Assembly (NCBI GenBank): GCA_026390735.1
Contig: JAPLFJ010000007.1
Location: 1-64,000, forward strand
Length of the DNA: 64,000 nt
Direction: 5' to 3'
From: Ignavibacteriota bacterium
GTDB taxonomy: Bacteria > Bacteroidota > Ignavibacteria > Tepidaquicellales > Tepidaquicellaceae
In this document: in pieces, positions 26,001 through 57,100 of the stretch
How positions within the stretch are numbered: the first letter of the stretch is position 1
Layout of the letters: every line of letters begins with the position of its first letter
Program-made: the position numbers and the translations under genes
The notes under the pieces: model-generated
Databases searched by the model: none
Told to the model about the DNA's origin: nothing
What the model saw: only the letters and a program-made list of their open reading frames with translations

Positions 26001-27543
26001 TCAAACAGGAAGCTGGACGCATGATGCAAAGACACAAAATACTCAGTGGTCATCAAACATGTACGAAATATTCGATGCCGACCGTAACGAAATACGTATG
26101 CTTGATTACACTTCCTTTCTAGAGCATTTTACACATCCTGAAGACAAAGAAACGGTACTTAAAGAATTTGCAAAGGCACTGAAAAACAAAGATTATTTGT
26201 TTAACACTAATTACCGTATAGTAAAAAGAGACGGAAGTATAAGGATTATACACGCAATAGCAAAGACGATATGGGACGAGAGCGGCGTTCTCACACAAAT
26301 GATCGGATGGGTAGAAGACATAACCAAACAAAAACAAACAGAGAAAGAACTTATACTGGCAAAGGAAAAAGCAGAAGAAATGAGCAGGCTGAAATCAAAC
26401 TTCCTTGCAAACATGAGTCACGAACTCAGAACACCGATGGTCGCTATTATGGGTTTTTCTGAAATATTAAGTAACTCATTAAATGATTCCGAAGAGAAAA
26501 GGTTTGCTGAAATGATACTCAAGGGCGGGAAAAGACTGACAAACACACTGAATTTAATACTTGATTTATCGAGAGTGGAATCAACTAAAATAGAATTCAA
26601 ATTAGAACCGCAAAACATATCAGGTACAATAGAATCTTCTGTAAGACTTTATGAAAAAGAAGCAGAAAAGAAAAAAGTAAAATTAACTTCCGACATAAAA
26701 GGAGTTGTGACAGCAAACATTGACATTTCAATGCTTGAAAAAATACTGGAACACATTATAGAAAATGCCGTGAAATATACAACCGAAGGCGAAATCAAAG
26801 TCACAGCAGAACACGAAAACTTTAATGGCGAAGAGTATACATGCATAAAGATTAAAGATACAGGAATCGGAATACCGGGAAATATGACTGAAATAATTTT
26901 TGAACCTTTCAGGCAGGCAAGCGAAGGCAGGAGCAGGCGTTTCGAGGGAACAGGGCTTGGATTATCGATTGCTAAAAAATATGTTGAACTGATGGATGGA
27001 ATTATCTGTGTTGAAAGCAAACTTGGTGAAGGCACTACCTTTATTTTAAGATTCCGTTCCTGTGCAACTCCGGACGCAGGTATTTACCACAAGGAAGACA
27101 TAATTAAGAATGAAAACAAAAGGAAACAGAGTGGTTCAAAAACAGCGAGAAAAATATTAATCGTAGAAGATGAAGAACTGAACCTCGACATGATTAAGCT
27201 GGCATTAAAGCATATTTGCGAATATGATTCTGTCTCAAGCGGCGAAGAAGCACTGGAGATTGTTCGTAAGAATAATTATTCACTGATTCTTATGGATATA
27301 GGACTAAAGGGAATAAGCGGAAGCGATGCTACTGCAGAAATAAGAAAGATACCCGAATACAAAACAACGCCCATCGTTGCCATCACAGCATTTGCAATGA
27401 AGGGCGACAAAGAAGAGTTTTTTGAAAAGGGCTGTTCGCATTATATTTCGAAACCGTTTGATGTTACTGAATTAAGAAATCTTGTGAAGGAAGCGTTATC
27501 AGGCAATAGGCATTTGGCAATAGAAAGAAAGAGTAGGATGTGA
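23086..27543 (+). CDS. Hybrid sensor histidine kinase with multiple PAS, GAF and receiver domains
   Basis: The 1485-aa soluble hybrid kinase has PAS units at about 25-130, 147-265, 275-390, 400-515 and 520-640, a GAF domain (about 655-815), two further PAS-like units (830-955 and 965-1090), HisKA (NMSHELRTPM, His near 1111), HATPase (about 1215-1330, GTGLGLSIAKKY) and a REC domain (about 1355-1475, phospho-Asp in LILMDIGLKG near 1403). There is no DNA-binding output. The last 15 or so residues (after VKEAL) are encoded by heptamer repeats that continue past the stop, so the tail is probably an accretion rather than a domain. It is co-transcribed with the upstream kinase. Confidence 0.92.
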   Translation: MNKESKKENKDNLFSEKAEIQFNDFFESAADAMFIAETHTGIIVEANLAASRLLLLPRERIIGLHQSQLHTKGNKGNNTEGFTKHEQETKEMAAAHLTTGNIIRSDGSEIPVEILASKITYKGKLCLIGTFRDITERKKTEEAFIESKEQFRSLSEEVPAFISSFLPDGTIIYCNQALASMTGKSVEEITGKNFYNFLNKEDLKIVKSSLKSLTPENPTENHVQSYTTPEGKTFYQEWRNRAFFDKKGKPLRYLAIGVDVTQSKEIENALRESEKKYRLLFDSSPIGIGIADLDGKVIAMNNTMQEITGFTIEEMKKRNVLDSYIYPEERERIKKDLIALGEIKDREAHLKRKDGAAYFALINLNLIELGGRKLMLSNIRDITELKQTYNEINLKEERFNQIADSSGIWVWETDKDGLFTYVSSTEESILGYKPEETVGKKHFYDFFAPEIKESYKSAALEAFSRKDVISNFVNPNIHKNGKRVILETSGVPILDEKGNLTGYRGADKDITERENAAGMLRSSEEKFSVAFKNIPVLLSISEFNTGKYIDVNDKFLELSGFSREEVIGKTSTEIGWISKEDRELLFNTLKKAGRVNELGLNLSKKNKEEMHCIYNGETLILNGEKYLLSMALDITERKKAEQEIENLNRVYSVISHINEMIVRTESKDELFRKACEIAVEQGKFRMSWIGLVDEKDKLVKPNTWSGHEDGYLKEIRNISILGNFAEGLGHTGIAVREGRTFHCDDIENNPLMAPWREKALKRGYRSSISLPLRLFGKMIGAFTLYADTPEFFDDKEVELLEKVADDISYALETIENKEARKQTEEELSRSHEMFSKLANQVPGVVYQYRLYPDGHSCFPYSSPGIYEIYEVTPEEVREDATPVFGRLHPDDLEMITFTIMESARTQEVYHSEFRVILPKQGLRWRLCDAKPELLEDGSTLWYGIITDITDRKNAEAEILKNQYMLAEAENIGQTGSWTHDAKTQNTQWSSNMYEIFDADRNEIRMLDYTSFLEHFTHPEDKETVLKEFAKALKNKDYLFNTNYRIVKRDGSIRIIHAIAKTIWDESGVLTQMIGWVEDITKQKQTEKELILAKEKAEEMSRLKSNFLANMSHELRTPMVAIMGFSEILSNSLNDSEEKRFAEMILKGGKRLTNTLNLILDLSRVESTKIEFKLEPQNISGTIESSVRLYEKEAEKKKVKLTSDIKGVVTANIDISMLEKILEHIIENAVKYTTEGEIKVTAEHENFNGEEYTCIKIKDTGIGIPGNMTEIIFEPFRQASEGRSRRFEGTGLGLSIAKKYVELMDGIICVESKLGEGTTFILRFRSCATPDAGIYHKEDIIKNENKRKQSGSKTARKILIVEDEELNLDMIKLALKHICEYDSVSSGEEALEIVRKNNYSLILMDIGLKGISGSDATAEIRKIPEYKTTPIVAITAFAMKGDKEEFFEKGCSHYISKPFDVTELRNLVKEALSGNRHLAIERKSRM

Positions 27544-27620
27544 GAAGTAGGGAGTAGGGAGAAAGAAGTAAGGAGTATGGAGTAGGGAGTAGGGAGTAGG
27601 GAGTATGGAGTAGGGAGAAA
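27499..27620 (+). repeat. Heptanucleotide tandem array across a stop codon
   Basis: A 7-bp periodicity starts inside the kinase gene with CAGGCAA TAGGCAT TTGGCAA and turns after the TGA stop (27541-27543) into GGAGTAG/GGAGTAA/GGAGTAT units. A block of GGAGTAG, GGAGAAA and GAAGTAA occurs twice. The phase stays largely at 7 bp throughout. Several GGG runs with 4-nt spacers are present. Confidence 0.85.
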
Positions 27621-28064
27621 GAAGTAAGGAGAAGGAATGGAACGCGGATGACGCGGATGACGCGGAAAGAACGGAGGAACACTGATAGAGATTTTTCAGG
27701 GTTAAAGATTTAGAGAAAGAGTAAGGAGTAGGGAGTAAGAAGAGATTAGAGAAGGATTGGAACGCGGGAAGAACAATTATACAGTTACGAGTGAAAATCC
27801 GCCGCGGCGGACAAAATGGCAAGAAAAGATAGAAGAAGAAATGGCACAGCATAAAAGACGATTAGAGCTGATTTTCACTGATTGTTTTTTAGGGTTAAAG
27901 ACAAGAAAAGATAATTCTGGTTTACCAGCGTATGAATTCAGAATTATAAATGATGGATTGAAGAGCAAGAACTTCAGACACGAATTTACACGAATTACTC
28001 AAATTTAAATAACGTTGATTTTTTAGGGTTAGAGATTACCCAGTGCCTCCTTACTTCCTACTCC
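27544..28064. repeat. Mosaic repeat region 1 (no convincing gene)
   Basis: This 521-bp gap holds only repeat modules: GGAGTAG heptamers, a 9-mer module GACGCGGAT (27640-27670), a TTTTTAGGGTTA module (three copies including a variant), a CACTGATTTT-like module, a GCCGCGGCGG stem, and a block around 27924-27998 that recurs near 36530-36590. The right end is a reverse-oriented GGAGTAG array that begins at the stop of the minus-strand gene. The open frame 27757-28008 is built wholly from these modules and is not called a gene. Confidence 0.75.
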
Positions 28065-31000
28065 TTACTTCAGTAAGAGGAGTTTTACGTTGTGAGTGAA
28101 AGAACCGGCTTCGATTCTGGCGAAGTATATACCGCTGGAATAGTTTGAGGCGTTCCAGGTCGCGTCGTACGTGCCTGCCTTAAGGTCTTTGTTGACGAGT
28201 GTTTCCACTTCCCTGCCCATTACGTCATATATTGTAAGTTTTACGAATGAGGCTACGGGGATTTCATATTCAATTTTTGTTGAGGGGTTAAACGGATTCG
28301 GATAGTTCTGCGACATGCTGAATTTCTTCGGTGTTGCAATCTCTACTTCGCTGTTCAGATAATAATATTCAAAGTTACCGTTATAATCTATTTGTTTTAG
28401 TCTGTACGAGTATTTTCCAGAGTTAAGTTTGCTGTCAGAAAACGAATAGTTAGTCGTTGTATTAGTTGTTCCTTTTCCTTTTACAAATCCAATCTTCTCC
28501 CAATTCTGAATTCTGAATTCTGAACTCTGAATTTTCTCCACTTCAAACCCTGCGTTATTAATCTCGGATGAAGTAGACCAGTTAAGGGTAACGGTATTTT
28601 TAACGACACCGGAATTAAATGAATTAAGTTGAACGGGAAGAACACCGCCAGGGTCAGAAATATATATGTCGTCGAAAAAAGCATTATCACCGGATGCAGT
28701 ATTATGATTCCATAAAACGCCAAGATAGTTCAGCGCGGTAGCCGTAAAAGTACTGTTAACGGCGGAAGCACCAATCTGAGTTGTAGTTAAACCAGGGGTG
28801 CTTTGCGGAAATACAGAAACATTGCTTTCAGCAAACAAACTCCAGGTATCTGTTGACGGGACATAAGTAACTCTAACGCTAATGTATTCCGCCCCATAAT
28901 TACCACCTGAAATAATATTCGTAACATTTGCATTTGCGTCAAGCCCGCCTGTAAAATGTACGAGTCTAATAGGGTTTGATGTGCCAGATTGACCGATAAC
29001 AACGGCATATCCATCTCCCGTTGTATAGTTCGAAGTTGTCATCCCAAGTATGAAAGCAATCCCAAAATTACCTGCATCGAATCCTGAGGGGTCTGTACGT
29101 GTATTCCTGAAATTAAAAGCCCATTGAACTGTTACGATAGAATTGCTTAAGGTTGTCGGATAACTGCTTAAGCCCGACAAGTTAACGAGTGCCACTTCCC
29201 TGCCTGCCGTTGTACTGCCCGCCTGAAGCTGGTTTGACAATATCTGCAGACCCGATGCAACAGTTTCTGTCTCAGACCAAAGCAATGATGTAGCACCGGT
29301 TGGTGTACTTCCAAGTGTTGTACTGTTTGCCCTGTTAAAATTATCCAGCAGTACAAGACCGGTCTGAGGTGCGGGCGCAGTTAAAGTTGTTGCATTAACT
29401 GATGGTACTGTGCCGTCGGTTTTATAATTTCTTGAAGTACCGTCGCCATTGTATGAATAAACCTGGAAATAATATTGCGTAGATGAATTCAAGGAAGAGA
29501 ATGTGTACGTTGCTGTTCCGTAAGTCGCATTTATTGTAGCCGAACCTTCTGCGAGCAGAGGGTCGTCCGCATACACAACTCCATCCGTGGGAACAGTGAA
29601 AGAATTTGTAGTACTGCCCAAGATTAAATAGCCCGATGGCAATTGTGAATTAACAACAGCGCCGCTCCACGTGAGTGTTATAGCACTTGTCGTAACATTT
29701 GTAGTGTTTAAGTTTGTAACATAATTTGTCGGCTCAGGCGATAAAACAGGTGTAAGGGTTGTTCCGTTTGCAGAAGGCACAGTACCGTCAGTTTTATAAT
29801 TAATTGAAGCGCCTGTTCCATTATAAGAATAAACTTTAAAGTAATAAGTTGTAGTTGGGTTTAAAGATGAAAACGTGTACTGAGTTGTTCCGTAACTTAT
29901 GTTCATTACGCCGCTTCCGTCTGACAGAGTTGCATCGTCCGAATAAACCATTCCGTCAACAGGTGCAGTAAATGAGTTACTTGTGTTTGCGAGAATCAGA
30001 TATGCAGTGGGAAGCGTTCCTCCGACAGCATTTGTCCAGTTAAGAGAAATATCGGTTGTTGTAATATTCCCTGTGCTTAAATTAGTCACATAGTTTGAAG
30101 GTTCTGTTGCAGGAGTTGAATTCCCTGTAGTTGCGTTTAAAGACGGAACAGTTCCTGTGGTTTTGTAATTACGTGAAGTACCGTCGCCGTTATATGAATA
30201 AACCCTGAAGTAATAAGTCTTATTGTTGCTTAATCCAGAGAATGTATAAGTATCGGCAGCACTGTACAAAACGTTTACAACGGCAACACTGTCAAGTGTT
30301 GCATCATCAGTATAAACAGAACCGTCGATAGGAATGAAATAATTATTCTTGCTGAAGGCCTCGATTAAATATCCTGACGGTGCCTGAGTACCTGTTGCGG
30401 CATCTGTCCAGTTTAGGGTTATCGCATTAGACGAAACAGAACTTGTAAAATTTGACAGATAATTTGTCGGCTCCACGGAATAGGTCGGACTTAATTTTGT
30501 TAAGTCATTAAAGTCTATATAATTTACATATTCAGGATGGTCTATAAACGGATTCCTGTTCTTCTGAACACTTTCGATATAATTATTTCTTTCCACTTCC
30601 CACTTATCCGGCGGGTCGTCCCTGTGCCACTGCAGGAGCGTGTTTACGTCCTGCGGTCCTTCGCTTGCAGAAGGAAGATAATTAGTATTCAGCCAGTTGA
30701 AGTTCCAGGTATAGCCGCCAATATCATCATACCTTACACACATATAAAACAAAGCCCTTGCGGCATCACCCTTATGTACATTTCTGGGTTCATAAACTGA
30801 TTTGCCAGCGGAGTTTTTACCGTATTTTCCATCATAGAAAGAACTTGTAACAGTTGTAACAATTCCGAGCGGGTGATTACTCCTGACACCGTTTGCGCTG
30901 TTCTGATTCAAAGGGAAAAGATGGTGCTGGTCCTGATACTGGTCAGTGCCTGTACCGCCAACGGGCATCCAGCTCTGGCACCAGGTATGTTCACGGCTCA

Positions 31001-31259
31001 TAACAGTCCATGCAAAAGTACCTGTATACTGATATTCCCAGCCGCTGTAAACACATATTACGCCGCGTGTTGAACCGCTTATCAAGTAAGAAGCGTAGTT
31101 AGCAACATTAGTAGGCCCGAAATTGGCATAAGTAATCCTTGTGTACGGGCTTCTGATACGGGTCTTCAAATCAGATACGAGAGTAGCATTGCCAGTATTA
31201 ATAGCAGTATAGTAAGCATCGTTCTGTGCGTAAAGATTAAACGAAGCACAGAAAAGCAC
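28065..31259 (-). CDS. T9SS-secreted endonuclease I with FnIII-like repeats
   Basis: The 1064-aa extracellular nuclease probably degrades DNA for nutrients. The N-terminal 250 residues are endonuclease I/NucM: SREHTWCQSW and QDQHHLFPLNQNSANGVRS carry the metal and catalytic His/Asn residues. Three tandem FnIII-like modules of about 120 aa (about 265-630, each with EPxNYxxN and YYFRVYSYNGDGTSRNYKT) follow, then a lectin/laminin-like domain (about 635-850) and a T9SS type A domain (about 985-1064). The annotated start is GTG, but it lies inside the signal peptide. The frame stays open upstream to 31313 and encodes the missing basic and hydrophobic residues without any ATG, so a rare ATT (31295) or ATA start, or a mutated start, is likely. 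Confidence 0.88.
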   Translation of the reverse strand: MLFCASFNLYAQNDAYYTAINTGNATLVSDLKTRIRSPYTRITYANFGPTNVANYASYLISGSTRGVICVYSGWEYQYTGTFAWTVMSREHTWCQSWMPVGGTGTDQYQDQHHLFPLNQNSANGVRSNHPLGIVTTVTSSFYDGKYGKNSAGKSVYEPRNVHKGDAARALFYMCVRYDDIGGYTWNFNWLNTNYLPSASEGPQDVNTLLQWHRDDPPDKWEVERNNYIESVQKNRNPFIDHPEYVNYIDFNDLTKLSPTYSVEPTNYLSNFTSSVSSNAITLNWTDAATGTQAPSGYLIEAFSKNNYFIPIDGSVYTDDATLDSVAVVNVLYSAADTYTFSGLSNNKTYYFRVYSYNGDGTSRNYKTTGTVPSLNATTGNSTPATEPSNYVTNLSTGNITTTDISLNWTNAVGGTLPTAYLILANTSNSFTAPVDGMVYSDDATLSDGSGVMNISYGTTQYTFSSLNPTTTYYFKVYSYNGTGASINYKTDGTVPSANGTTLTPVLSPEPTNYVTNLNTTNVTTSAITLTWSGAVVNSQLPSGYLILGSTTNSFTVPTDGVVYADDPLLAEGSATINATYGTATYTFSSLNSSTQYYFQVYSYNGDGTSRNYKTDGTVPSVNATTLTAPAPQTGLVLLDNFNRANSTTLGSTPTGATSLLWSETETVASGLQILSNQLQAGSTTAGREVALVNLSGLSSYPTTLSNSIVTVQWAFNFRNTRTDPSGFDAGNFGIAFILGMTTSNYTTGDGYAVVIGQSGTSNPIRLVHFTGGLDANANVTNIISGGNYGAEYISVRVTYVPSTDTWSLFAESNVSVFPQSTPGLTTTQIGASAVNSTFTATALNYLGVLWNHNTASGDNAFFDDIYISDPGGVLPVQLNSFNSGVVKNTVTLNWSTSSEINNAGFEVEKIQSSEFRIQNWEKIGFVKGKGTTNTTTNYSFSDSKLNSGKYSYRLKQIDYNGNFEYYYLNSEVEIATPKKFSMSQNYPNPFNPSTKIEYEIPVASFVKLTIYDVMGREVETLVNKDLKAGTYDATWNASNYSSGIYFARIEAGSFTHNVKLLLLK
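28502..28529 (-). repeat. In-frame CAGAATT heptamer array inside the endonuclease gene
   Basis: Four 7-bp units (AATTCTG three times, AACTCTG once, plus-strand reading) encode QSSEFRIQ just before the NWEKIG motif that precedes the sorting domain. The reading frame through the array is intact. A different heptamer sits at the equivalent site of the neighbouring T9SS gene. Confidence 0.85.
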
Positions 31260-31439: not shown

Positions 31440-31647
31440 TTACCAAAACTCCTTTATTGCCTAATCCTTACTTTTTCTTTAATCTCTAACCCTAAAAACT
31501 CTTCTTCTTTTTCTCTGTGTCCTCTGTGTGCTCAGTGGTGAACAATCTTTTCTCTAATTATTAATCCGCGCTCATCCGCACTTTCAGCGTCATCCGCGTT
31601 CCAATCCTTCTTTAATTTCTTACTCCTTACTTCTTACTCCCTACTCC
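31440..31647 (-). repeat. Mosaic repeat region 2
   Basis: Read on the minus strand, this gap begins at the stop codon of the T9SS gene with GGAGTAG-type heptamers, continues with GGAACGCGGATGACGC and GCGGATGAGCGCGGATTAA, a GTTCACCACTGAGCACAC module, then TTTTTAGGGTTAGAGATTAA, and ends with GATTAGGCAATAAAGG. The order of modules matches region 1 and region 3. No gene is seen. Confidence 0.75.
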
Positions 31648-32109
31648 TTACTTAATAACCGCCATCTTCTTCGTCATCACAAAATCCTTTGCCGACGACT
31701 TCGTCATAATACGGTAGAAATAAATCCCGCTCGACAAATCAGAAGCATTAAACTGAACGGTATGGTAACCCGCAGTTCTTGACTCATTAACCAGAGACTT
31801 TACTTCCCTGCCTGTAATATCGTAGAGTGAAATATTCACCTTACTGTCGAGAGGCAAATCGAAATCAATCTTAGTAACAGGATTAAACGGATTCGGGTAG
31901 TTCTGACTAACGTTAAACTTAGCAGGAACGCCGACTTCCACTTCACCGTTAAGCGCGAAATATTCAAAGTTACCGTTATGGTCAATCTGTTTCAATCTGT
32001 ACTTGTATTTACCAGTCTGCAGGTTTCTATCATCGTAAGAATAGTTAGTAGCAGTGTTCGTAGTTCCTTTTCCGCTTACGTATCCAATCTTTTCCCAATT
32101 GCCTGTTGC
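31648..32109 (-). pseudogene. Detached 3' part of T9SS protein (sorting domain, out of frame)
   Basis: The frame is open from 32109 and encodes about 153 residues beginning ATGNWEKIGYVSGKGTTNT, then the T9SS type A domain FNVSQNYPNPFNP...MTKKMAVIK. It is the natural continuation of the 1125-aa ORF upstream but lies in another frame; the nearest internal ATG (31995) is not a plausible start for a secreted domain. The switch in frame coincides with three heptamer repeats at 32101-32121. The domain itself has no stops or decay, so the break is recent, phase-variable or a sequencing error. Confidence 0.8.
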
Positions 32110-35100
32110 CTAATGCCTAATCTCTCTATGTTGAACCCCGCATTATTAATTTCGCTTGTAGTAGTCCAGTTAAGTTTAATATTCCTGCCAGTGACAGAAT
32201 TAGTTAATGATGAGAGTGTAACGGGCATAGCGGATTCATTCTGACCTGAGCCAAAAGGAGAATAGGTTGTTATTCCAGAAGCATACAAAGTGAAATCAAC
32301 AAACTCACCAATCCCTGCTGCTAAATTTGCAGTTCCTGCTGTTACCCAGGAATTATTATACAGATGCCATAATTGAGCATACGTATTTCTGTTTGCTGTA
32401 AAGTTTGTACCTTCCTGTGATGTCAACCATCCCACTCTTAGTTTTGTATTGCTTGAAGCCGGACCATTAACATTCCACTTTAGTTTTAATCTGTCTGCAC
32501 CGCTGTTTGTTCCTGAAACATCTGGTTCGACATTAATAGTATAATCACCTGTAGAGCCGGAATTTGTAATCCAAACCGGGGAGTATGCATCAGCGGTTCC
32601 GATTGGGAATAATATTTCGGTGTTCACAGCAGGATTTCTTGTAAGAACGCCTGTTGAATTTGTTACAATATAATTTGAAGCGGACACCCCTGAAACAGTT
32701 GCACTGCTTCCAAGCGTTAGATTGTTTGCGCCAAGATTTAATTTTCCGTTAGTGAAAGTGAGTGTTCCGTTGACGGTAGTATTACCAGCAAGCGTTACAT
32801 TAATACCAGAACCATTTATTGTTAAATTTCCATATTCTGTTAATGGGAGTTGTGATGATGTAGTAACCGTTTTATCATAATCAGTGATTGTTATATCGTC
32901 GATATTAATTTTTGTAGAGCTGGTTGTTTTTAAAATCTTAAACCTTACTGCTCCTGGTTGATTTACACTGAATGTAGTCGGTGTTAAAGTTGCAGTTGTA
33001 GAAACCAGCGCTCCAACATTTGACCATGTTGATCCCCCATCAGTTGATTTTTGCAATTGCCAAGTACAAGTAGCATCGGTACCATAGCTTGCACTATTGA
33101 TTGTAATATCTCTAGCCCCATTTGTCAAATCAAAATTCATTTTAATGTATCCGGCCGTCTGCATTCTTACACTCCAGGTGTTGTTTTTCTTATCATTTGT
33201 TAAATTCCCAATTAAAGCGTCTGACATTTCCCAACTTCCCATAGTACAAACAACAGAACTTACTGCATACGACCCTTTTGTCCCTGCCTCAAAATTTTCA
33301 AAGAATGATGCAGGTGTATTTGTTACTTGTGAATTAGGGTTGTTGGTGCCTGTTGTTAATAAGAACTTTGAGTTCAAACCTGTATTGTTATATTCATAAA
33401 CCCTGAACCAATAAACGGTTCCTGCCGTAAGGCCTGTTACAGATACTGTGTTACTTGTAGAATTGTAAATACACTGTTCGCCAGAACCCGAATACGTGGT
33501 TGACGTTGTTATTGTAGCACCATCAACAGGGTCAGTAAAACTATTTGATGTATTCATTAAAACTACTCTTTTATCTCCGTTACCGCTAGTCCAGTTAATA
33601 GTCATGGAAGTATTTGCAACCGTTGGAAATGTTATTGCAGACGCCTGAGTAGTTGGCGCTATTTTTAGTGTTGTGGCATTTGCTGTTAAGCCGGCAGAAT
33701 AGAAATTATAAGCATCATAAGAAAATGTTTTATAATAGACAGTCTGGAAAGGAGAAAGACTTGTATGGTTAGTTAATGAAGCGGCAGTACCTTTATACCA
33801 GATAGTGCCTCCGGCAAAAGCCTCACCCTGAATACCCGGGGCAACGCCATCTGTAGGAGTGGAGAATGTTCCTGTTGCATTATATATAACAACTATGTTA
33901 TTCCCATTAGTATTTGCAGTGGATGTTAAATTAATTTGAGAAGAACTTTCTGTAACAGCCGTAAATGAGATAGGGTCTGATGGAGAAACCCCTGTTCCGC
34001 TTAATGCAACATTTGGATCATTCGCGCCAGTACTTGTATGTGTAATGTTTCCGGAATACGATGTAATTGCTGTAGGTTTAAATCTTACATATATTGTAGT
34101 TGAGTTTACGGTTCCACCCGTTTGAGTCAAAGTAATCGTACCAAGATTGGCAACAAAATTTGCACCTGAATTTGTGGATATTTCAAATCCACTCGGAGGT
34201 GTCAATACAATATCGGCAGTTAAATTTGCTCCCAACACAGTATAATTTAATTCAACCGAAGTTGTGTTAACGGGAACATTGCCAAAACCAGAGATTGAGC
34301 CTACCGAAATTGTGGGTGATGAGGCGGTTAACGTTGTTTGAGAATTAGGATTATTTGATGCAGTTGCTGTATAAAATGTAGTTGTAGAACCAGTTCCGTT
34401 ATATTCAAATATCTGAACCCAATAAGTTGTGTTTTGATTTAAGTTTGATAAATTCACTGTATTGCTGGAACCATTATAAATACAATAATAGCCGGAAGTG
34501 CTAAGTTGTGTTCCTTTAGTCATCCAGTCATTACTGGCGGTATATGTTACTCCATTAGTTGGATTTACTATACTCCCTTGATTTGATTCCCTTACAAATA
34601 CCGCCCTATTACTTCCATTGCCGCTCGACCAATTTACTGTCATTGAGCTTGTTCCAACCGATGGAAAGGTGATTCCAGATGCCTGAGTTGTTGGAGCAAC
34701 AATTACTGGCCCAACTATATCAGCCCAAGTAGTTGCAACTCTAATACCATCCAATTTTAGCGCTGGCGCGGCAGACGAAGATCCTTGTCTTAAACCAACA
34801 GAACCAATACTAGCGAGATCCGCCGGAGTATCTGTACTTATTGTCCAACCTGTAACAGGTTCGGCGGCATTTAATGTTGGATTAATGTAAATAGCTGATA
34901 TATCATTTGTTGTACCAGCAACCACTGTATATTTTAATACTAACAGATAAGTTGTACCTGTGGTATAGCTATATGGTGTAAAAATAGCCGTTCCAATTAG
35001 TCCGGCCCTTGATATCCCGAAAGCAAAGTTAGTCGTAATGGCATCCTTTTTAATGAAAACCCTACCGTGATATGTCGTACTCATTGTTGCTCCCCCAAGA

Positions 35101-35453
35101 TGAAAGAAGTAATCTCCTGTTGTTTGGGACGAAGTAACATTTATTAAACAAGATGCATAAATAGATTCTGAGGTTTGCGCAGTAAAAGTCTTATTTACAT
35201 CCTGTCCCGTGTTTGATAATGTAGTTTCTAATCCGGTTCCTGAAGATAAATAGCCAGCATAAGATATTGTAGATGCTGTAACCATCACAGTTGGACTGGC
35301 TGTTGAACCTGTGAGATTCCACCCATTAGCTGTTAAATCTGTTCCAACAGTATAACTAAAATTTTCATTTAGCAAGGGTGTCTGCCCCCAGCCCACATTA
35401 GCAAAAACGGTAAATAATATAACGACCAGTAAAAATTGTTTAATTTGTTTCAT
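32076..35453 (-). CDS. Large secreted FnIII-rich protein, sorting domain lost by frameshift
   Basis: The 1125-aa product has a signal peptide ending NVGWGQ (about residue 23), a N-terminal domain of about 220 aa resembling a carbohydrate-binding or laminin-like fold, and FnIII-like modules with PTTQASxITFPxVxxxSMTVNW (about 250-370 and 600-715). Between them is a TSYSGNITHTSTGA-type module (about 380-490); a beta-rich domain and the YSPFGSGQNE segment lie near the end. It stops at GKRLDT without the T9SS domain, which follows in another frame. As it stands it would be exported to the periplasm but not sorted. A hairpin follows the combined gene at 31391. Confidence 0.85.
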   Translation of the reverse strand: MKQIKQFLLVVILFTVFANVGWGQTPLLNENFSYTVGTDLTANGWNLTGSTASPTVMVTASTISYAGYLSSGTGLETTLSNTGQDVNKTFTAQTSESIYASCLINVTSSQTTGDYFFHLGGATMSTTYHGRVFIKKDAITTNFAFGISRAGLIGTAIFTPYSYTTGTTYLLVLKYTVVAGTTNDISAIYINPTLNAAEPVTGWTISTDTPADLASIGSVGLRQGSSSAAPALKLDGIRVATTWADIVGPVIVAPTTQASGITFPSVGTSSMTVNWSSGNGSNRAVFVRESNQGSIVNPTNGVTYTASNDWMTKGTQLSTSGYYCIYNGSSNTVNLSNLNQNTTYWVQIFEYNGTGSTTTFYTATASNNPNSQTTLTASSPTISVGSISGFGNVPVNTTSVELNYTVLGANLTADIVLTPPSGFEISTNSGANFVANLGTITLTQTGGTVNSTTIYVRFKPTAITSYSGNITHTSTGANDPNVALSGTGVSPSDPISFTAVTESSSQINLTSTANTNGNNIVVIYNATGTFSTPTDGVAPGIQGEAFAGGTIWYKGTAASLTNHTSLSPFQTVYYKTFSYDAYNFYSAGLTANATTLKIAPTTQASAITFPTVANTSMTINWTSGNGDKRVVLMNTSNSFTDPVDGATITTSTTYSGSGEQCIYNSTSNTVSVTGLTAGTVYWFRVYEYNNTGLNSKFLLTTGTNNPNSQVTNTPASFFENFEAGTKGSYAVSSVVCTMGSWEMSDALIGNLTNDKKNNTWSVRMQTAGYIKMNFDLTNGARDITINSASYGTDATCTWQLQKSTDGGSTWSNVGALVSTTATLTPTTFSVNQPGAVRFKILKTTSSTKINIDDITITDYDKTVTTSSQLPLTEYGNLTINGSGINVTLAGNTTVNGTLTFTNGKLNLGANNLTLGSSATVSGVSASNYIVTNSTGVLTRNPAVNTEILFPIGTADAYSPVWITNSGSTGDYTINVEPDVSGTNSGADRLKLKWNVNGPASSNTKLRVGWLTSQEGTNFTANRNTYAQLWHLYNNSWVTAGTANLAAGIGEFVDFTLYASGITTYSPFGSGQNESAMPVTLSSLTNSVTGRNIKLNWTTTSEINNAGFNIERLGIRQQAIGKRLDT
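32101..32121 (-). repeat. ATTAGGC heptamer array at a frameshift
   Basis: On the minus strand the units are ATTAGGC (32115-32121), ATTAGGC (32108-32114), AACAGGC (32101-32107), followed by a decayed AATTGGG (32094-32100). The upstream ORF runs through in one frame to a stop at 32076; the sorting domain is in the frame one base earlier. One extra unit, or two fewer, would join them. Confidence 0.85.
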
Positions 35454-35999: not shown

Positions 36000-36365
36000 C
36001 TTTACAAGGATTGCCCTAAACGATTTTTCCAATCGGCAAACAATTTTATAAACCCTTTATAAAATAGAACCTGATTATAGTGAGGTTTTAATACGGAAAT
36101 CTTTTTATGGTGGCCGCTTGCGCATTGTGGTCAGATAAAAAAGAACCCTTTCGTACTTAAAACCTGTAAACCTTTTTAACAAAGTAATAGGTATTTGTAT
36201 AACCCTTTTGATGAATGATACTTATTACTTTCGTAAATTGCGAAGAATGGATAGGAGTTTCACCGTATATTATGCAGGCGATAAGATGTTGATACGGGGG
36301 ATTGATTTGGGGGTTAAGCGATTGGGTTTTTCTTTTGTGTATTATATGTATGTGCGGGTAATTTT

Positions 36366-36960
36366 AGGGAGTAATGAGAAAGAAGTAGGGAGTAAGGAGT
36401 AGGGAGTAAGGAGAAAGAAATTAAAGAAGGAATGGAACGCGGATGACGCTGAAAGAACGGATGAACGCGGATTAAAGATTAGAGAAGGAATGGAACGCGG
36501 ATGACGCTGAAAGAACGGATGTAAAAACAATTATGAATTCAGAATGATGAATGATGAATTGAAGAGCAAGAACTTCTGACACGAATTAACAAGAAAGGAA
36601 TTAAAAAGTTGTTTAGGGTTAGAGAAAAGATTAAAGAAGAGATGTCCACGACTCCTTTTAAGAGCATAAAGGAATGACAACGTGTGAATAAGAGAATTAA
36701 TATATGCTAATTATGCGAATTAAACGAATTAGAGATTTTTCAGGGTAAGATCAAAATTAGTAAGGAGTAAGAAGTAAGGAGTATTGAGAAATTAAGGAAG
36801 GAATGGAACGCGGATGACGCGGGAAGAGCGGATGAAGAGCAATTATGAATTCTTCCACCACGGCGGACGCAAAGAACGCGGAATTATGAATGATGAATTA
36901 AAAGAATAAAGATAGAGATATACTACAAAGCAGTTATGAGGAGAAGAGAAGGAAAGGAAT
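36366..36960 (+). repeat. Mosaic repeat region 3
   Basis: Two rounds of the same series occur on the plus strand: GGAGTAG/GGAGTAA heptamers, GGAATGGAACGCGGATGACG, GAACGGATGAACGCGGATTA, ATGATGAATGATGAATT heptamers, a GAATTAACACGAA-like module, TTTAGGGTTAGAG, then again heptamers (36758-36790) and the GACGCGG module. A CCACGGCGG segment parallels CCGCGGCGG in region 1. No coding sequence is supported; the frame 36208-36402 ends inside a heptamer array. Confidence 0.75.
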
Positions 36961-38129: not shown

Positions 38130-38420
38130 AGAGAAAAAAGTAAAGAGTAAGGAAGTAGGGAGTAAGGAGAAATGAGTAGGGAAAAAGAAGTAAGGAAGTA
38201 AGGAGAAAGCAATTGGCACTATAAAAGGATTGGAACGCGGATGACGCGGGAAGAACGGATTAGAAGAAGAGATGGCACACTGATTTTAATGATGAAAAGC
38301 TGATTTGCACTGATACAAAATACTTAGGAATGGAACGCAGATTTACACTGATTGAACTGATTTTCACGGATTTTAAAGTATTGAATAATTATAGATTTAT
38401 TTTAAGTTACTTAGAAGAAT
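38130..38420 (+). repeat. Mosaic repeat region 4
   Basis: This region carries heptamer-like GGAGTAA/AAGTAGG units (38139-38210), GGATTGGAACGCGGATGACG, then ACTGATTTT/GCACTGAT and TTACACTGATTG modules. Downstream, near 38480-38515, a segment ending AATTCTGGTTTATCATCG repeats a piece of region 1 (27913-27935). No gene is seen in 37651-38558 apart from a doubtful 33-codon frame at 37936-38037. Confidence 0.7.
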
Positions 38421-54100: not shown

Positions 54101-57100
54101 ACCTGCACATTATTAATTATGTGCCTTCTCCTGTTAACGATGCAGGTACTCCTGTTTCAATCATTACTGACTACGACGGAAATACAAGGGATGCAGTAAT
54201 GCCCGATATTGGTGCATACGAATATGCTCCGCTGGCTCCTACTCTCGTTAGTCCTGTGAGTAATTCTACTGCAAATAATTTATCTCTGAACCTTGTATGG
54301 ACAAAGCCAATTGGAGCAATTGCATACAATCTTATAGTTGCAACAGATGCAGGATTTACAAATATCATTAAGCAGGATACAACATTGACCGATTCTCTTT
54401 ACACAGTCTCAAACCTGAATATGCTTACAACATATTACTGGAAAGTCAGTGCGAACATATACGGATGGGGAGCATTCAGCAGAACTTCCAATTTCAAAAC
54501 AATAGGTTCACCAACAGGTGTTGTTCTTAACCTGCCTGCAGACAATGCAATAAATCAGCCGACGACCGTAACGTGCAGCTGGTATAAAGCTGCTGATCAG
54601 ACTTTCCAGAAAAACAAAGCCAAAGGAAATTCTCCTGAATCAGGGCCACTGGCTGTTTCAAACTACTGGTTAGAATATTCAGTTGATTCATCATTTGCAA
54701 CAGGGGTTACCGTTGACAGTACATTAACAGACACAACAAAAGTACTTGCGGGTCTGAATAATCTTACACATTATTACTGGAGAGTGAAAGCAAAAAATCA
54801 GGCAGGATGGAATGCTTACGGTACTAAATGGAGTTTCACTACGATTATCAGTTCACCAGGTGCGCCTTCACTGATAAGTCCGATTAATAATGCAGCTTCG
54901 CTGCCTCTGTCTCTGGATTTATCCTGGAATAAAATAAATACTGCAGACTTTTACAATGTTCAGGTTTCAACCAACCCCGGTTTTACTAATATTGTGGTTA
55001 ATGACTCTGCAAGCGTGGATACAGTTAAGTCCATTTCAGGACTTAATCTCCTCACAAATTATTACTGGAGAGTAAGGTCTTATAACGTGAGCGGATGGTC
55101 TGCTTTCAGTAATTCCTGGACTTTCAAAACACTTGGTACTGCTACTCAGGTAGTTTTATCTTCTCCATTAAACGGAGCAATAAATGAACCTTTGACATTA
55201 ACCTGCAACTGGTTTAAAGCAGTTGATATGACAAACAAGTTGACTACTATAAACGGCAAAAATGGAAAGACTAACAACGGAAAAACGGACAACGGACAAC
55301 GGACAAGGAACAACTATGATTCTCCTCTTGCAGTTTCAAGTTACTGGTTTGAATACGGAACGGATTCGACTTTTGCAACTGTACTGTTCAGAGATTCAAC
55401 ACTGACAGACACAACAAAAATCTTATCCGGTCTAAGTTACTCTGCAAGGTATTACTGGAGAGTTAAGGCGAGCAATCAGATTGGATGGGGTGCATTCAGC
55501 AGCAACTGGTATTTCACAACCGCTCCGGATATCCCTGCGGTGCCGACATTAGTGTCACCTGCAAATAATTCAGTTGACCTTTCAGTTGTACCTGCACTTG
55601 ACTGGAACGATGCAGCGTATGCAGCAAATTACAGATTACAGATTTCAATAAGTCCGGCTTTTACACCAATCGCATACGATACTACAGGAGTTGTTCTTTC
55701 GCAGATTACTGTCCCTTCGGGAAAACTTACTACGAACAAACAGTATTACTGGAGAGTCAGTGCAACAAATTATACAGGTACAAGTGGTTATTCGACGGTA
55801 TGGAATTTCACAACTGCTCCGAATTCTCCGAACGTACCTGTGCTTTCTGCTCCTTCAAACGGTGCAACAGGTCAGCCGACTACGCTCAGTTTCAACTGGT
55901 TTAAAGCAGTTGAAACAATGTTGGACAATAAAACAAACAACGGACAACGAACAACGAACAAAGGAGATTCTCCTGATGGAATCAGTAAATACTGGTTTGA
56001 ATACGGAACGGATTCAACACTTGCAACATTTATTGCAAGGGATTCTTCTCTTACTGATACGACGAAAACCTTAACCGGTCTTGCAAATTATTCAGTATAC
56101 TACTGGAGAGCGAAAGCAAAGAATCAGACGGGCTGGAGTGGATTCAGTGCAATTTGGAAATTCACGACATTGCTTCCTGTTCCTGCAGCGCCTGTTCTTG
56201 TTTCACCTGCAACCAATACTACAGGTTCAACTCTGATCCCAGATCTCACCTGGAGAAAAGTAACTTATGCCGTAAGTTATAAGGTACAGGTATCCGCGGA
56301 CAGTTTATTTACGACTTCATTACTTGATACTATAGGTGTATTGGATACTACTTTTACTCTGGCAGCCGGTAAACTTACAGGAATGACTAAATATTTCTGG
56401 AGAGTAAGTGCTGTTAACGCAAGCGGAGCCGGTGTGTGGTCATCAGTATGGAATTTCAAAACTCTACAAAACCTGACACTAAACCTGAAAGTACTTCTTG
56501 AAGGATTCTGGAATGGTTCAAATCAGGTATCAGATTCGGTAACTGTTTATCTTGCAAATTCCACAGCACCTTATGCTTTTACAGACAGTGCTAAACTTGT
56601 TCTGTCAACATCAGGAACCTGTTCACCGAACTTTACAAAAGCGACAAACGGAAATTATTACATAGTGATAAAACACAGGAACCATCTTGAAACGTGGAGT
56701 AAACTTGCCAAATCATTCGTAACGAATGTTGCAGTAACTTATGACTTCTCAACAGCGGCAACACAGGCATTCGGCGATAACATGAAACAGGTCGGAAGTG
56801 TATGGGTACTGTTCGGCGGTGACGCAAACAAAGACGGTTCCATCGATGCAAACGACATCGGAATCTTTATAACAGAATTCGGTTCTCTTGGATACTTAAG
56901 AAGTGACTTCAACGGTGACCAGGACGTGAATGCATCAGACGTACTTATAATCTCGAACAACTTCGGTCTGATAAAGATTGTACCGGGCGGAGAACCTTTA
57001 GCACCTGAAACAAATAAGAATAAAAAAATGCAGTTCGAAAATACAATTAAATCAGGTAAGGATGTTCAAAAGCCTGTAAACAAAAGCAATACCGAAGCAG

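Follow-up and report, generated by a model that had tools for sequence, protein, structure and literature searches.

Does the heptamer array at which a T9SS cargo gene is broken switch its product between a sorted and an unsorted form, or does it record a single slip in a family of repeats? The gene lies on the minus strand of the window, by which we mean the whole 64,000-nucleotide stretch analysed here, and belongs to a draft genome of 4.0 Mb in 69 contigs (G000). The features discussed below are collected in Table 1.

Table 1 Features at the target gene and its neighbouring paralogue (window positions)
Feature	Positions	Strand	Details
5′ part of T9SS cargo gene, 1125-aa ORF with FN3-like repeats	32076..35453	-	PF16656 39.9 bits, fn3 20.9 bits; out-of-frame end just past heptamer array
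FN3-like beta-sandwich domain and start of sorting region, frameshift-split	31867..32228	-	array encodes connection between two adjacent strands
Heptamer array ATTAGGC ATTAGGC AACAGGC AATTGGG, hairpin loop	32094..32121	-	3 units + terminal AATTGGG
-1 frame, rest of hairpin domain and sorting domain	31648..32109	-	stop-to-stop open; no start or signal peptide attached in assembly
T9SS type A sorting domain (Por_Secre_tail)	31690..31899	-	residues 68-137 of 150-aa translation
Second heptamer array, GAGTAAG/GGAGTAG type	31619..31652	-	starts at stop codon of -1 frame
Neighbouring T9SS cargo paralogue (endonuclease I, FN3, sorting domain), intact	28065..31259	-	
AATTCAG array in equivalent loop of neighbouring paralogue	28502..28533	-	4 units + AATTGGG, in frame
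Heptamer array at stop codon of neighbouring paralogue	28047..28069	-	

Two reading frames meeting at a heptamer array

The 1125-aa ORF opens with MKQIKQFLLVVILFTVFANVGWGQ, which is signal-peptide-like when judged by eye, and its C-terminus reads ...INNAGFNIERLGIRQQAIGKRLDT before a TAA at 32076. Directly before this stop, the minus strand reads GAGAG ATTAGGC ATTAGGC AACAGGC AATTGGG AAAAG, an array of four units, two identical and two degenerate, with a TRF score of just 30 (for 32107-32121). The -1 frame, bounded by a TAG at 32112-32110 and a stop at 31648, translates as NWEKIGYVSGKGTTNTATNYSY...NYPNPFNP..., and its reading across the array (NWEKIGYVSGKGTTNT...) leads into a T9SS type A sorting domain at its end, recognised above the cut-offs by both TIGR04183 (44.0 bits, cut-off 23) and PF18962 (51.1 bits, cut-off 27) and absent from the 1125-aa frame. 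An earlier note on this DNA had described a secreted protein that runs into ATTAGGC-type heptamers and stops at 32076, with the intact sorting domain in another frame, and the frames and profile matches bear this out. PorU, the T9SS sortase and the component of the system that was searched for, is encoded in the genome (912.8 bits, cut-off 420).

The two frames overlap by about 10 codons and are joined by +7 or -14 bases at the array, i.e., by the gain of one unit or the loss of two. This arithmetic, also put forward earlier, is right, and two in-frame paralogues carry exactly one more unit. The unit is not a multiple of 3, and its copy number sets the reading frame, as would be required of a contingency locus. 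The shift needed is -1, which together with the overlap could accommodate a programmed -1 ribosomal frameshift that yields the full protein from the gene as it is; however, the overlap contains zero sites of the X XXY YYZ form and the paralogues encode the equivalent junction in one frame, which makes this explanation highly improbable. Separate expression of the -1 frame was also considered and rejected, since by our reading its product would have no signal peptide.

A predicted loop in an FN3-like domain

The break divides the domain that precedes the sorting domain. Columns 29-122 of its profile (A1) match 31867-32151 and columns 1-42 match 32103-32228, and the two matches are in different frames. 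AlphaFold2, run on an alignment of the domain, predicted strands at residues 16-38 and 48-59 with a loop at about 37-47 (mean pLDDT 83.8), and a Foldseek search with the predicted domain returned FN3 matches, the best in the PDB being titin FnIII (TM 0.61/0.74). The stretch encoded by the array is thus placed between adjacent strands of a beta-sandwich, and a hairpin-loop connection that tolerates inserted units is therefore plausible on the basis of this model.

In-frame paralogues in the same genome

According to a profile survey, this domain occurs at full length about two dozen times in the genome; apart from the target, which alone is split across two frames, each of the strong matches lies within one open frame. 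Two of the paralogues (L064 and L065) carry the heptamer family of the target at the equivalent codon position with exactly one more unit and in frame, as exemplified within this pair by AGTAGGC ATTAGGC AATTGGC ACCAGGC AATTGGG. Because they share both the family and the position, the coincidence of array and frame break in the target is not due to chance. Further paralogues have the same layout of four units plus a terminal one, built of other heptamers (AGTTAAG, AATTCAG and AACAGGN), and three (L066, L073 and L074) have TCAGAAT/TTAGAAT units and one codon fewer. Since the in-frame paralogues carry 4 plus 1 units, the target is one unit short of the working layout. Altogether, 12 of the 13 heptamer-bearing copies are in frame and the target is the sole broken one, where the count covers L064-L069, L071-L075 (L075 being the most degenerate), L081 and the target and leaves out L070. 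The paralogues are diverged (74% alike at best), too far for the immediate ancestor of the target allele to be recognised among them.

A scan of about 1.25 Mb for ORFs split at 7- or 14-bp arrays returned the target and four other rows, one opposite an intact gene and three short and AT-rich, and thus no other convincing broken coding gene within that scope. L178, a candidate second broken array, was rejected, as an intact gene lies on the strand opposite its match. The target contains no further stop or frameshift downstream of the break, and its differences from L076 fall on the three codon positions as 31/16/78 (dN about 0.19, dS about 2). Judged by this codon pattern, the downstream frame appears to have been under purifying selection for most of its history, as expected of a young break; a recent loss, a reversible state or a consensus error would fit alike.

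Seen in one assembly, the 7-base difference would look no different if it came from a mixed population or from an error in the consensus. That the true gene is in frame and the break an error of consensus or assembly draws some support from the draft state of the genome, from the otherwise intact target gene and from three contigs of two relatives (G004 and G020) that end at the loop, so that assemblers evidently struggle there. On the other hand, the change amounts to exactly one repeat unit, the array of 28 bp is far below read length, and twelve similar arrays in the same assembly are in frame; we therefore regard such an error as unlikely.

The heptamer population of the genome

The commonest TRF period was 7, with 36 arrays in 851 kb of the target genome and 16 in 200 kb of a congener, and counts of exact runs placed periods 7 and 14 far above the neighbouring periods, an excess of period 7 over other periods that is characteristic of a dispersed family. 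Exact copies of the 14-mer TAGGCATTAGGCAA number six in the 4.0-Mb genome, where simple base counting would predict about 0.03, and zero in eight relatives; allowing one mismatch gave 11 occurrences versus 6 for a reversed-pattern control, which is little difference. Heptamer units are thus present at several unlinked places, TAGGCATTAGGCAA at six and the GAGTTAAG family at many. As in a dispersed family, the arrays are mainly intergenic near gene ends, the target array itself being coding: 14 of 44 intergenic arrays lie within 15 bp of a stop codon and 4 near a start. Arrays at the 3′ end follow 6/59 T9SS genes versus 3/472 other genes (Fisher p = 9.5e-5); by eye, several more T9SS genes have weaker 3′ arrays. 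The target loop has 20 identical bases in common with the array 3′ of another T9SS gene (L245). Units are more alike within an array than across genes at the equivalent position (distance 1.5 versus 3.8; 0/5000 permutations as extreme); slippage, exchange or replacement therefore renews the units on long time scales.

Several further arrays were noted along the way. At one of the TAGGCATTAGGCAA sites, a DnaJ-like gene (L250, G000:C58 about 170865) takes its last codons and stop (ALGNRH) from an ATTAGGC-type array that overlaps its 3′ end. The window contains intergenic arrays of the GGAGTAA/AGTAGGG type at 27531-27635, 31619-31652, 28047-28069, 36365-36417, 36759-36783 and 38139-38209, three of which start at a stop codon or no more than about 15 bp from one, and 9-mers such as ACGCGGATG adjoin some of them (27642-27666 and 36808-36835). 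ACAACGG and AACGAAC arrays lie within a 2981-codon open frame of the window (55251-55314 and 55932-55961). Elsewhere in the genome, five surveyed regions on contigs C1, C65, C33 and C55 (L122, L145, L149, L150 and L156) hold many T9SS cargo genes with arrays in the loop and at the stop codon, the units differing. One of these regions (L156 6022-7570, G000:C55) contains a 1629-aa open frame with three AGTTAAG arrays about 710 bp apart in one frame, each with a long GAACAAC array (about 13 units) after it, and a 400-bp AGGAAGT array of about 57 units lies at L146 176-576 (G000:C65 about 20.2 kb).

The loop across relatives

Among 126 distinct copies of the domain drawn from the family, 25 have loops with a lag-7 identity of at least 0.55, other lags giving 0-2 and shuffling leading to an expectation of 0.76. 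Heptamer loops are present in the target genome and in four relatives (G004, G005, G013 and G020), with unrelated units such as AATTGAA, AATTGAT, AGGTCAA, GTCAGAC and TTCAATG; this survey comprised mostly high-scoring, full-length matches, so that broken copies in the relatives are under-counted. Two copies in G005 have 7 units plus the terminal one, three more than usual, with the frame preserved. An orthologous heptamer loop in the sister species G020 and G005 has flanks 88% identical and is of equal length. The contig ends at the loop in G004 and G020 were examined as a sign of length polymorphism and set aside, since two of them share an identical end sequence, so that the assembly break can be put down to sequence repeated among paralogues. 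A partial domain in G020 (C57) was likewise dismissed as a candidate for a broken array; its frame is interrupted upstream, and no heptamer array is found at that place. The genome and viral contig collections scanned for a near-identical or same-species locus yielded no orthologue of the target, and a search of the loop with a DNA pattern of one heptamer type, too strict as written, gave zero matches.

Comparison with known heptamer systems

The neuO gene of the E. coli K1 phage CUS-3 is a coding switch whose 7-nt unit is repeated 3-53 times; of 64 genomes, 65.6% have it OFF (PMC13001214). Strains of Haemophilus influenzae carry about 13-24 heptamer units in the hmw1A promoter (PMC8262952). 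The target resembles both in its 7-nt tandem unit, and neuO also in that a change by one unit shifts the coding frame; it differs from both in that its units, about 3-4 in number and degenerate, lie close to the gene's 3′ end, and in that nearly all paralogous arrays are in frame. A true contingency locus, in which frequent heptamer slippage toggles between sorted and unsorted protein and the assembly has caught an OFF lineage, would agree with the frame-shifting unit, with the intact and selected remainder of the gene and its sorting domain, with the turnover implied by the homogenisation of units within genes, and with the two seven-unit copies in G005. Against it, at a neuO-like OFF rate the probability of finding no more than one off-frame array among 13 is P = 2.4e-5, a comparison of different genes rather than alleles, which speaks for the family and not for the target gene alone. 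Moreover, only two adjacent units are identical, far from a long near-perfect tract; the orthologous array of G020 and G005 is unchanged in length between the two species; an off-frame length is seen in 1/13 homologous arrays, which are other genes and not alleles of the target; and the sequences scanned showed no second allele. The literature search found nothing relevant on phase variation or tandem repeats in connection with T9SS.

We thus consider a frequently toggling locus improbable and the switch reading of the target array weakly supported; the target gene alone may still switch at a low rate. What stands of the switch proposed in the earlier note is the change by one 7-nt unit relative to the in-frame paralogues and the sorting domain that would be lost with it; the repeated toggling is disfavoured by the 12/13 loops in frame and the short, imperfect tract.

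The STRR of cyanobacteria are dispersed heptameric repeats. So are the TAACTGA repeats of Beggiatoaceae (PMC4679880). In Xanthomonas and Nostoc, the heptamers GGGAATC and GGGGA(C/T)T are often found on the sense strand no more than 50 bp from a stop codon (PMC4692102). The arrays described here are like all of these in being short, lineage-specific and present in many copies; they differ in that one genome carries several unrelated heptamers, and in that many arrays are coding, within one fixed loop of T9SS cargo and with a copy number that preserves the frame. As in other T9SS type A cargo (TIGR04183/PF18962), the C-terminal sorting domain follows FN3-like domains and PorU is encoded in the genome; the target allele differs in having this domain out of frame.

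Possible exchange of sorting cassettes

The sorting domain has an array on either side, in the loop and at the stop codon, and these arrays might act as joints for exchange or conversion of a sorting cassette between paralogues, with occasional out-of-frame products like the target. As a hint of this, heptamer-loop paralogues (L064/L065/L066/L073/L074 and L069/L071) differ at a smaller share of four-fold sites in the sorting half than in the half before the loop, for example 9/38 versus 9/12, both based on few sites, and in two non-heptamer pairs the divergence of the two halves is alike. One loop is identical (27/27) between two genes, the flanks of which are 67% and 85% alike. We hold such a role of the arrays in exchange to be quite unlikely.

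Proposed origin and meaning of the break

Combined with the above analysis, the best explanation, to which we assign a probability of about 0.6, is that a dispersed, frame-selected heptamer array has recently lost one unit, which would disable sorting and be reverted only rarely. The array would belong to a lineage-private heptamer population that is dispersed at the 3′ ends of genes and in a single, tolerant hairpin loop of T9SS cargo. Selection probably holds the number of units in this loop in frame, at 4 plus a terminal AATTGGG-like unit and occasionally at 7 plus 1. In the target gene, one unit would have been lost recently, most likely by strand slippage or by unequal exchange between near-identical units. 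The loss is most likely real. With its sorting domain out of frame, the gene would encode a protein cut short before the T9SS sorting signal and most likely not sorted. Another change in unit number could restore the frame, which is expected to be rare given the short, imperfect tract.

To our knowledge, heptamer arrays are over-represented in many bacterial genomes and have no accepted role. Here, in several genera, heptamers of differing sequence recur in frame at a single codon position within a large exported protein family, a natural experiment on the birth, homogenisation and selective filtering of heptamer repeats, with the clear prediction that the number of units in the loop is 1 mod 3, to which the target is the one exception. 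Unrelated heptamers in one T9SS cargo loop and at stop codons form a wider pattern that is more interesting than the single break, and the target looks like a single recent slip in a spreading repeat family rather than a routine on/off switch.
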